Positions 53,521-56,010 of a DNA stretch of 64,000 bases are shown here, in pieces. Made by a program: the position numbers and the translations under genes. The first letter of the stretch is position 1, and each line of letters starts with the position of its first letter. The notes under the pieces are model-generated. The model saw only the letters and a list, made by a program, of their open reading frames with translations. It was not told the DNA's origin and searched no databases. This DNA comes from Brevundimonas diminuta (GTDB lineage Bacteria > Pseudomonadota > Alphaproteobacteria > Caulobacterales > Caulobacteraceae): the NCBI RefSeq assembly GCF_022654015.1, contig NZ_CP073063.1, positions 1-64,000 of the forward strand, written 5' to 3'.

Positions 53521-54060
53521 GATCAGAAGGCTTGGATGTTGACGGTCAGCTGGCCTTCATAGGCGCCGGCGAGCAGCGACTTGGACGGAACGGGGATGTT
53601 CACGTTCAGGGCCATGGCCGACTTCCAGGCGCCGTGGCTGGCGCTGGTGGAGTTGGCGTTGGCGGCCAGGTTGATGTAGTTGCCGTTGGTCGCGGCGGCC
53701 GTGGAGCCGACGGCGCCGGCGGTGTAGGTGCCGGTGACCGAATAAGGCAGGCTGGCCTGGAAGACGTTGGAGTCGTAACCGGCGCCCGAGTTGTTCACCA
53801 GGCCGCGGATGTCGTTCTTGGACACGGTGACGGTGTTCGAGGTGTTGCAGCCGGCCAGGTTGGTATCGATGGTGACGTTGGCCGGAGCGGTCATGTCAAA
53901 GGCATTGGCCGGGCCGGTGTCGTCCGAGGCGTAAATGCCGATGGTGCCGAAGTCGATCGTGGTCGAGGCGTTGCCGGTGTAGTAGGCGCAGTCCGTCGAC
54001 ACAGCACCCTTCAGGGTGAAGGTCGCGCCGTCAGCGTTCGACGCCGTGCCGTTGTTCGCA
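53521..54060 (-). repeat. Pilin repeat unit A (about 540 bases)
   Basis: Conserved 3' part of pilin A. It is nearly identical at base level to units at 54361-54899 and 55212-55750; the similarity continues just past the stop codon, less exactly in this copy (downstream text has CGTCCTGAAGATC instead of CGTTCTGAGGATC). Confidence 0.85.
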
Positions 54061-54290
54061 GCCGAACTGCCCGTGGCGGTGAACACCGAGATGTTGCTGT
54101 CCTGTCCGCCCAGACCGTTAGTGTTGACGAAGTTGATGAAGTTCATGTCGGTCGTGCCGCCGGGGGCAAAGGCGCCGTAGTTGCCCTTGGAGAAGCTGCC
54201 GATGGCCGAGCCTTGGTTGATGGTGCCCGCTTGTGCGGTCGAGACGAGGGCCAGCGCGGCGACGCCGGCGAGCAGAGCTTGAAGCTTCAT
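53523..54290 (-). CDS. Chaperone-usher pilin A (third in the tandem set)
   Basis: The product of about 255 residues has a signal peptide (MKLQALLAGVAALALVSTAQA, about 1-21). A variable region follows, opening with INQGSAIGSF, then a 177-residue C-terminal domain identical to that of the two upstream pilins (53526-54056). The domain has two cysteines (TDCAYY, AGCNTS), pilin-like strands IDFGTIGI and YEGQLTVNIQAF, and a beta-sandwich pattern. The initial Q-G-S-x-x-G motif may lie in the donor strand that links subunits; this is inference. The ATG at 54290 is chosen because AGGAAAC fits it; a frame from 54335 is open. This is the last of the three, closest to the chaperone gene. Confidence 0.75.
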   Translation of the reverse strand: MKLQALLAGVAALALVSTAQAGTINQGSAIGSFSKGNYGAFAPGGTTDMNFINFVNTNGLGGQDSNISVFTATGSSAANNGTASNADGATFTLKGAVSTDCAYYTGNASTTIDFGTIGIYASDDTGPANAFDMTAPANVTIDTNLAGCNTSNTVTVSKNDIRGLVNNSGAGYDSNVFQASLPYSVTGTYTAGAVGSTAAATNGNYINLAANANSTSASHGAWKSAMALNVNIPVPSKSLLAGAYEGQLTVNIQAF

Positions 54291-54354
54291 GATCATGTTT
54301 CCTGGATGAAGGGGGATGACGACGGCTGTCGGCATCCTTTGGTTTCAAGTCGTT

Positions 54355-54899
54355 CTGAGGATCAGAAGGCTTGGATGTTGACGGTCAGCTGACCTTCGTA
54401 CGCGCCGGCGAGCAGCGACTTGGACGGAACGGGGATGTTCACGTTCAGGGCCATGGCCGACTTCCAGGCGCCGTGGCTGGCGCTGGTGGAGTTGGCGTTG
54501 GCGGCCAGGTTGATGTAGTTGCCGTTGGTCGCGGCGGCCGTGGAGCCGACGGCGCCGGCGGTGTAGGTGCCGGTGACCGAATAAGGCAGGCTGGCCTGGA
54601 AGACGTTGGAGTCGTAACCGGCGCCCGAGTTGTTCACCAGGCCGCGGATGTCGTTCTTGGAGACGGTGACGGTGTTGGACGTGTTGCAGCCGGCCAGGTT
54701 GGTGTCGATGGTGACGTTGGCCGGAGCGGTCATGTCAAAGGCGTTGGCCGGACCGGTGTCGTCCGAGGCGTAGATGCCGATGGTGCCGAAGTCGATCGTG
54801 GTTGAGGCGTTGCCGGTGTAGTAGGCGCAGTCCGTCGACACAGCGCCCTTCAGGGTGAAGGTCGCGCCGTCAGCGTTAGACGCCGTGCCGTTGTTGTTG
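54355..54899 (-). repeat. Pilin repeat unit B (about 540 bases)
   Basis: Conserved 3' part of pilin B. Its differences from A and C are silent. The identical stretch extends past the stop codon into the intergenic sequence (CAAGTCGTTCTGAGGATCAG), which it shares with unit C. Confidence 0.85.
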
Positions 54900-55138
54900 G
54901 CGGCGCCGCCCGTGATCAGCAGCAGCGAAACGTCGCCCTGGTTGTTCGGGCCGTTGACGTAGTTTTGAGCCAGGTTCAGCTGGGCCGTGCCGGTGTAGGT
55001 GCCGATGGTGCTTTGCGCATTGCCGTTGGCGTCATACGGGCCGCTGGCCGAGCCCTGATAGATCGGGTTGCCGGCCAGAGCCGGAGCGGCGGTCAGAGCA
55101 AGGGCGGCGACGCCGGCGAGAAGAGCTTTAAGCTTCAC
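54362..55138 (-). CDS. Chaperone-usher pilin B (second in the tandem set)
   Basis: The 258-residue product has a signal peptide (about 1-22, MKLKALLAGVAALALTAAPALA), a variable segment beginning IYQGSASGPY and continuing to about residue 81, then the 177-residue domain shared with its neighbours (54365-54895). Compared with the other two copies, it has several silent differences, all third-position changes in what I compared. GGAGAA stands before the start. The N-terminal regions of the three copies are so different that they align only at the signal peptide and the QGS motif. Confidence 0.75.
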   Translation of the reverse strand: MKLKALLAGVAALALTAAPALAGNPIYQGSASGPYDANGNAQSTIGTYTGTAQLNLAQNYVNGPNNQGDVSLLLITGGAANNNGTASNADGATFTLKGAVSTDCAYYTGNASTTIDFGTIGIYASDDTGPANAFDMTAPANVTIDTNLAGCNTSNTVTVSKNDIRGLVNNSGAGYDSNVFQASLPYSVTGTYTAGAVGSTAAATNGNYINLAANANSTSASHGAWKSAMALNVNIPVPSKSLLAGAYEGQLTVNIQAF

Positions 55139-55197
55139 AGTAGTTCTCCCTTTAACGAGAAGTGGGCGCCGACGCGATGCCGACGCCCTTGGATCTC

Positions 55198-55750
55198 AAG
55201 TCGTTCTGAGGATCAGAAGGCTTGGATGTTGACGGTCAGCTGGCCTTCATAGGCGCCGGCGAGCAGCGACTTGGACGGAACGGGGATGTTCACGTTCAGG
55301 GCCATGGCCGACTTCCAGGCGCCGTGGCTGGCGCTGGTGGAGTTGGCGTTGGCGGCCAGGTTGATGTAGTTGCCGTTGGTCGCGGCGGCCGTGGAGCCGA
55401 CGGCGCCGGCGGTGTAGGTGCCGGTGACCGAATAAGGCAGGCTGGCCTGGAAGACGTTGGAGTCGTAACCGGCGCCCGAGTTGTTCACCAGGCCGCGGAT
55501 GTCGTTCTTGGAGACGGTGACGGTGTTGGACGTGTTGCAGCCGGCCAGGTTGGTGTCGATGGTGACGTTGGCCGGAGCGGTCATGTCAAAGGCATTGGCC
55601 GGGCCGGTGTCGTCCGAGGCGTAGATGCCGATGGTGCCGAAGTCGATCGTGGTTGAGGCGTTGCCGGTGTAGTAGGCGCAGTCCGTCGACACAGCGCCCT
55701 TCAGGGTGAAGGTCGCGCCGTCAGCGTTCGACGCCGTGCCGTTGTTGGCG
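55198..55750 (-). repeat. Pilin repeat unit C (about 540 bases)
   Basis: Conserved 3' part of pilin C. It shares the downstream intergenic stretch with unit B. No base was found where C alone differs while A and B agree in the positions I compared. Confidence 0.85.
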
Positions 55751-56010
55751 GCTGAGCTGCCCGAGATGGTGATCAGCGACACATTGCTGTTGACGCTAGG
55801 GTTCAGCGCATCGGCGATACCCACGATGGTCGTGTTGTTGCTTGTGCCCGTGAATGAAACGCCAGGAATGGTGCCGAACGGCGTCGGGATCGGGGGCGTA
55901 ATCTGAACGGTGCCCGTAACGGAGCCCTGGTAGACGCTGCCGGCCATTGCAGGGGCGGCGATCATGGCGAGCGCGGCAGCGCCGGCCATCAGGGAAGCGA
56001 ACTTCTTCAT
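55213..56010 (-). CDS. Chaperone-usher pilin C (first in the tandem set)
   Basis: The 265-residue product starts with a signal peptide (MKKFASLMAGAAALAMIAAPAMA, about 1-23). A variable region with VYQGSVTGTVQI follows up to residue 88, then the identical C-terminal 177-residue domain (55216-55746). Positions where copies A and B differ from each other match C in one or the other, so C looks like the parent sequence of both or a mosaic. Its promoter region holds a perfect CtrA-type box at 56088-56103, so it is likely to be cell-cycle controlled. It is first in the pilin set. Confidence 0.78.
   Translation of the reverse strand: MKKFASLMAGAAALAMIAAPAMAGSVYQGSVTGTVQITPPIPTPFGTIPGVSFTGTSNNTTIVGIADALNPSVNSNVSLITISGSSAANNGTASNADGATFTLKGAVSTDCAYYTGNASTTIDFGTIGIYASDDTGPANAFDMTAPANVTIDTNLAGCNTSNTVTVSKNDIRGLVNNSGAGYDSNVFQASLPYSVTGTYTAGAVGSTAAATNGNYINLAANANSTSASHGAWKSAMALNVNIPVPSKSLLAGAYEGQLTVNIQAF

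Follow-up and report, generated by a model that had tools for sequence, protein, structure and literature searches.

The window analysed here, 64,000 nucleotides of Brevundimonas diminuta DNA that form part of a complete 3,209,446-base genome, carries three tandem pilin genes on the minus strand, A (53523-54290), B (54362-55138) and C (55213-56010), each an open reading frame at the place first described. Comparison with relatives gives good support for domain-limited concerted evolution in this array, a reading that is highly probable on sequence grounds. The C-terminal part of the pilins appears to be kept alike among the copies of one genome, and the N-terminal part follows types of its own. 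It would be a clean natural case of concerted evolution restricted to a single protein domain, and one that several species of the genus show.

A, B and C have the same last 177 residues, preceded by a codon that differs (Ala, Asn and Ala). This constant part, 177 codons and a stop codon, is predicted to consist of a donor strand and an immunoglobulin-like pilin domain. It lies at 55213..55746 in C, 54362..54895 in B and 53523..54056 in A (minus strand). The 531 bases of the 177 codons have 13 variable sites, every one silent, and C agrees with A at six of these and with B at seven, in alternating patches. One stretch of 260 bases is free of differences; random placement at third positions gave such a stretch in 4 of 10,000 draws. 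The DNA likeness extends about 20 bases beyond the stop codons. The preliminary description had noted both the identical C-terminal part and the nearly identical DNA, with silent differences and with C matching A or B at each, and both statements were borne out, the first by protein comparison and the second at base level. No pilin copy beyond the three was found in the window genome at an E-value of 0.1.

Ahead of the constant part, each of the three intact genes has a signal peptide and a variable N-module, with the cut between them made by eye. In C the signal peptide is at 55942..56010 and the module, residues 24-88, at 55747..55941. In B they are at 55073..55138, with a GTG start, and 54896..55072, and in A at 54228..54290 and 54057..54227, all on the minus strand. 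Judged from homologues, the start of A is probably the ATG at 54290 rather than the upstream one at 54335. The N-parts had been called unrelated, with a QGSxxG motif as their only common feature. This did not hold, as the closest mature window pairs have 33-42% identity, depending on the alignment, and a short end motif is also common to them. The predicted models of C and A have a common strand-strand-helix-strand order, with extra short strands in C.

Relatives of the pilins are present in 27 of 131 Brevundimonas genomes. Ten of the 27 have at least two matches, in part fragments at contig ends. Within-genome copies were comparable in seven of these ten (G000, G024, G082, G107, G137, G146 and G152). 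The second matches of G139, G149 and G153 are cut by contig ends and were left out of the C-part pairs, and one gene, G107_9280, is cut at 109 C-part residues. Together with five paired contigs, whose pairing is deduced from matching lengths and source labels, there are 12 multi-copy sets comprising 27 genes. In L064 and L065 (G107) and L056 (G139) the draft contig breaks off within one of the array's pilin genes, and copy numbers in draft genomes are therefore probably underestimated. Scoring of 7996 candidate proteins gave 291 matches, 120 of which were listed. Eleven of the 120 have no split motif (F, then L or V) and five duplicate genome genes; with 28 genome genes added, the set came to 132 sequences. 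Of the 26 further genomes that had a match, 17 had their regions fetched. Eight of the nine named loci are from Brevundimonas, and the ninth, L017, is named only as "Caulobacteraceae bacterium". An order-wide scan found matches in 7 of 299 genomes and 1 of 54 genera; since at most eight candidates were scored per genome, absence outside Brevundimonas is provisional. One weak same-order match (G053/L010) overlies a stretch of ribosomal protein genes and was taken as chance.

The C-parts follow the genome. In 13 within-genome pairs from the seven genomes, C-part identity is 0.966-1.000 with a silent divergence (dS) of 0-0.106, and N-part identity in the same pairs, signal peptide included, is 0.25-0.53. 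When the five paired contigs are added, within-genome C-parts are 97-100% identical. Between genomes, the C-parts of G000 and G152 are 60-79% identical to those of G082, G007, G137, G146 and G024, with dS of 0.33-0.75. For G000 this means 78-79% to G082, 76% to G007 and 60-64% to G137, G146 and G024, and 98-99% to its close relatives G152 and G107. The N-parts follow the type. None of the 27 genes has its best-scoring N match in its own genome, although the outside match is weak for four, and the own paralogue provides the best C match in 16 of 27, is tied in three and is lower in eight. In these eight the closer foreign C-part is 97.8-100% identical and therefore probably comes from a close relative. 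The clearest case is that of three contigs (P0008/P0035, P0030/P0039 and P0033/P0051), each carrying the same two N-types: the best cross-contig N matches are 75-78% and 81-91%, and the C-parts are 100% identical within a contig and 83-89% identical in the same cross-contig matches. Gene conversion, one of the two origins first proposed, is thus seen in every multi-copy genome that could be compared.

Trees of 34 rows chosen from the 132 sequences separate the two parts in the same manner. The C-part tree accounts for 11 genome groups in 11 changes, one above the minimum of 10, and nine of the groups form one side of a branch, the others being G152 and the B. nasdae pair. On the N-part tree the same 11 groups need 19 changes, no better than shuffled labels; because that tree has 88 columns only and some long branches, its deep structure is not to be read. 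In approximately unbiased (AU) tests on the C tree, two of two testable N-type pairs were rejected (p 1.4e-34 and 1.8e-58); two further sets stood outside the test, apparently having rows identical to rows beyond the set. On the N tree six of six genome groups were rejected (p at most 3.3e-4). This test has its limits. Silent sites of the C-part are slow overall, and the concerted pattern is weaker among the closest relatives. The ranges of silent divergence overlap, with 0.045-0.106 among the three window copies and 0.045-0.089 between them and G152. Window B, G024_6905, G146_7463 and G146_8368 have no good N relative in the set (21-40%), and by plain identity the own paralogue's N-part equals or exceeds the best match in three of these four genes. 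Still, six sites separate all G000 copies from all G152 copies, and among these copies no C-part site past the first codon was seen by eye to follow the N-type.

The boundaries of the alike block are similar from genome to genome. In most multi-copy genomes its start falls exactly on the same NNG codons; in G137 it begins 24 bases before them and in G082 about 60 bases after them, all 13 differences of G082 being confined to the first 60 bases. Its end lies between the stop codon and a point about 25 bases downstream, and in G146 differences extend into the last codons. In a polymer subunit of this kind, the conversion boundaries would lie near the edge of the part predicted to serve assembly.

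At 50% identity the N-parts of 130 sequences form 30 clusters and the C-parts a single one; single linkage of the N-parts at 40% unites 103 of the 130. By eye, an N-type with an I-N/H-x-G start and SAWH or SSWH near its end stands first in G024, G146, G139, G082 and G137, an NM-x-N type second in G024, G146 and G139, and a VYHA type second in G152 and G082. By these comparisons the N-types are old and passed on independently of the C-part, and several hold their position in the operon. Close same-type N-parts are constrained, with amino acid-changing divergence (dN) of 0.06 vs dS 0.42 in one comparison and 0.15 vs 0.90 in another; those of G007 and G082 are less so (0.24 vs 0.34).

Mobility of the N-modules could be given more weight, such that the identical C-part is mainly a recombination handle for their exchange, gain or movement, like cassette-based surface variation. 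In the window the A-type gene takes third place in the operon; it lies outside the operon in G152 (L051 6735-7508), about 210 kb away, and in G107 (L063 3867-4640), on a separate contig with other flanks; the two outlying genes have about 1 kb in common and different surroundings. Flank DNA searches for an empty site gave partial matches to the window genome and no clean empty site. In addition, the place after C is occupied by different N-types in G000 and G152, and one N-type may be joined to C-parts only 62-65% alike (G137_5917 with P0071, P0100 with P0073). Such a swapping system is nevertheless unlikely. No silent N-cassettes were found in the window genome, where an N-module search at an E-value of 1 gave 11 matches; apart from the three genes themselves these are eight with E-values no better than 0.0047 and scores no higher than 19.4 bits, a level at which unrecognisably diverged cassettes could escape. 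The three window copies are intact and have signal peptides, dN of the N-parts is well under dS in close same-type pairs (less markedly in G007/G082), and several N-types hold their operon position across species. The phase variation considered in the preliminary description is left unsupported by the same lack of silent cassettes, the intact reading frames and the N-types fixed in position. In the pilE/pilS system of Neisseria and the MgPa system of Mycoplasma, donor copies change an expressed gene. These systems also combine constant and variable parts in one surface protein and recombine between repeats, but no donor copies were found here, and here the constant part is the converted one.

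The donor strand probably lies within the constant part, the variable part being an extra module ahead of it, 57-65 residues long in the window. In a structure-prediction alignment of 114 sequences (111 of the 120 proteins and the three window proteins), F, G and V occupy invariant columns of the donor-strand register, inside the constant part. The near-total counts of F and L/V at the split-motif positions are partly by construction, because the motif requires them; the invariant columns are unaffected. Most pilin fold matches (CsuA/B, Csu rod, CupE1, FimG) start at residues 86-110, inside the constant part. A sibling pilin of conventional form (56266-56910) has, by eye, the same strand-to-Cys register about 14 residues past its signal peptide, and a homologue in G078 is almost without an N-module. 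The opposite assignment, in which the variable N-part is the true inserting strand and sets subunit order, was the one first proposed and is quite improbable. It draws on an N-terminal strand predicted with fair confidence (residues 26-36 in C, 25-35 in A), which by eye has an alternating pattern with glycines, and on the several N-types that hold their operon position. The few fold matches that extend into the N-part (CfaB, CS17, one FimA and one Caf1) also count for it and against a donor strand in the constant part. Foldseek with model C gave no match at an E-value of 0.001 or better; model A was compared by VIA-align only. One relative, P0024, has an apparent internal repeat of roughly 35 residues inside the constant part.

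The other origin first proposed, in which one gene was recently duplicated and the N-parts were then replaced, would explain the very high C-part identity if the window stood alone. Without continuing conversion, the same event would be needed separately in at least seven genomes with nearly the same boundary. Moreover, the N-types are common to sequences whose C-parts differ by 11-38% and are therefore older than the C-part identity, so that this origin is very improbable. It is hardly more credible that the C-parts stay alike through purifying selection on the protein and strong codon bias alone: although their dS is below that of usher and chaperone in the comparisons made, C-parts differ in up to 40% of amino acids between genomes and at most 3.4% within the 13 pairs, the likeness extends past the stop codon in some genomes, and under selection by itself copies would not resemble their own genome in preference to their own N-type.

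By these comparisons the half with the predicted donor strand and pilin domain evolves in concert among the copies of a genome, and does so in its DNA. RecA-type gene conversion between copies is the simplest mechanism, and in G152 and G107 a copy outside the operon takes part. Each subunit's donor strand would have to fit the groove of the next subunit, and homogenisation would keep the subunits of one strain compatible and able to co-polymerise into mixed filaments. The N-module, beyond the free end of the donor strand, may decorate or clamp the filament, and three copies would give one rod three different surface modules while the N-modules diversify. As a whole, conversion of the assembly half combined with co-polymerising subunits that differ in their N-modules is favoured by a modest degree. 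Its functional side, in which the subunits would have one interface in common and display different modules, is plausible from the sequences, and recurrence of the pattern in other Brevundimonas genomes suggests interchangeable building blocks with different front modules. A full modular display pilus, with mixed filaments of assembly-equivalent subunits and modules reassortable between operon, outlying copies and species, is a more tentative proposal. The arrangement makes testable whether co-assembling paralogues must share an interface kept alike by gene conversion.

By its profile matches the locus is a predicted chaperone-usher pilus operon, and it resembles the archaic kind typified by Csu of Acinetobacter and CupE of Pseudomonas. 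According to the sections consulted, CupE1 has a 13-residue N-terminal donor strand, and archaic pili form a zigzag rod with clinch contacts (PMC9452303). About 40-85 further residues precede the predicted donor strand here, and up to three N-module pilins have one nearly identical C-part. This hints at pilins with an extra module ahead of the donor strand, an arrangement that does not appear in those sections of the archaic pilus accounts (CupE1; PMC9452303). A functional likeness is found in the type IV pilins PilA1-6 of Haloferax volcanii, in which, from the part of the report consulted, the assembly segment is almost completely conserved among the six and each alone forms a functional pilus (PMC4371748). 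There too several pilins of one genome have nearly the same assembly segment, but pilus type and domain of life differ, and the segment there is a short H-domain at the N-terminus, as against a 177-residue domain at the C-terminus here. Among open-licence PMC papers, searched mostly by title, nothing was found on chaperone-usher pilins with concerted evolution or conversion, and a title search of the same source for Brevundimonas chaperone-usher systems gave nothing on this pattern.

The cluster is transcribed from the minus strand in the order SCPU-like pilin, pilins C, B and A, PapD-like chaperone, usher and a last gene. The first gene (56266..56910) is the conventional pilin without an N-module. 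SCPU was matched in 4 of 16 first-gene stretches (best E-value 7.3e-4), the window protein being under the curated cutoff, and is absent from the families listed for the 114 N-module pilins. The predicted periplasmic chaperone (52481..53434) scores 22 bits against PapD_N, just under the curated cutoff of 23; the family was matched in 13 of 15 chaperone stretches (best E-value 5.2e-6), the relatives being tblastn stretches, not full genes, and L061 being dropped. The stretch taken as chaperone in L061 (5321-6232) has three stop codons on translation, which could reflect wrong coordinates or a disrupted gene. The predicted outer-membrane usher (49782..52484) likewise scores 22 bits, under the Usher cutoff of 27.1, and that profile matched 14 of 16 such stretches (best E-value 2.1e-10) and also retrieves 3fcg, a piece of the F1 capsule-anchoring usher (E-value 0.0031). 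The last gene (48843..49754) encodes a predicted 303-residue secreted protein. By position and size it occupies the place of the archaic two-domain tip adhesin, and it had no family match in profile searches. Chaperone, usher and last gene occur together in 16 fetched loci, with the SCPU-like pilin in 15 of the 16, L065 being cut by a contig end. Searches of Pfam, NCBIfam and PDB sequences with the three pilins matched nothing useful.

A strong hairpin, its ends set by eye, lies between pilin A and the chaperone gene (53466..53500, minus strand) and may lower chaperone and usher expression relative to the pilins. It is kept in G152 after the last pilin (L050 6649-6736) and after the outlying A-type pilin (L051 7506-7580). 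A GC-rich hairpin of 10 pairs is present between pilins C and B (55164-55188, minus strand). A promoter and terminator scan gave no more signals than in shuffled sequences, and an Rfam search had as its sole match a tRNA gene upstream of the operon (57256-57327, minus strand). Beside the operon, on the plus strand, is an open reading frame of 147 residues (48320-48763) with no family match. It accompanies chaperone and usher in 16 of 16 fetched loci and lies on the other side of the cluster in L067 and L068.
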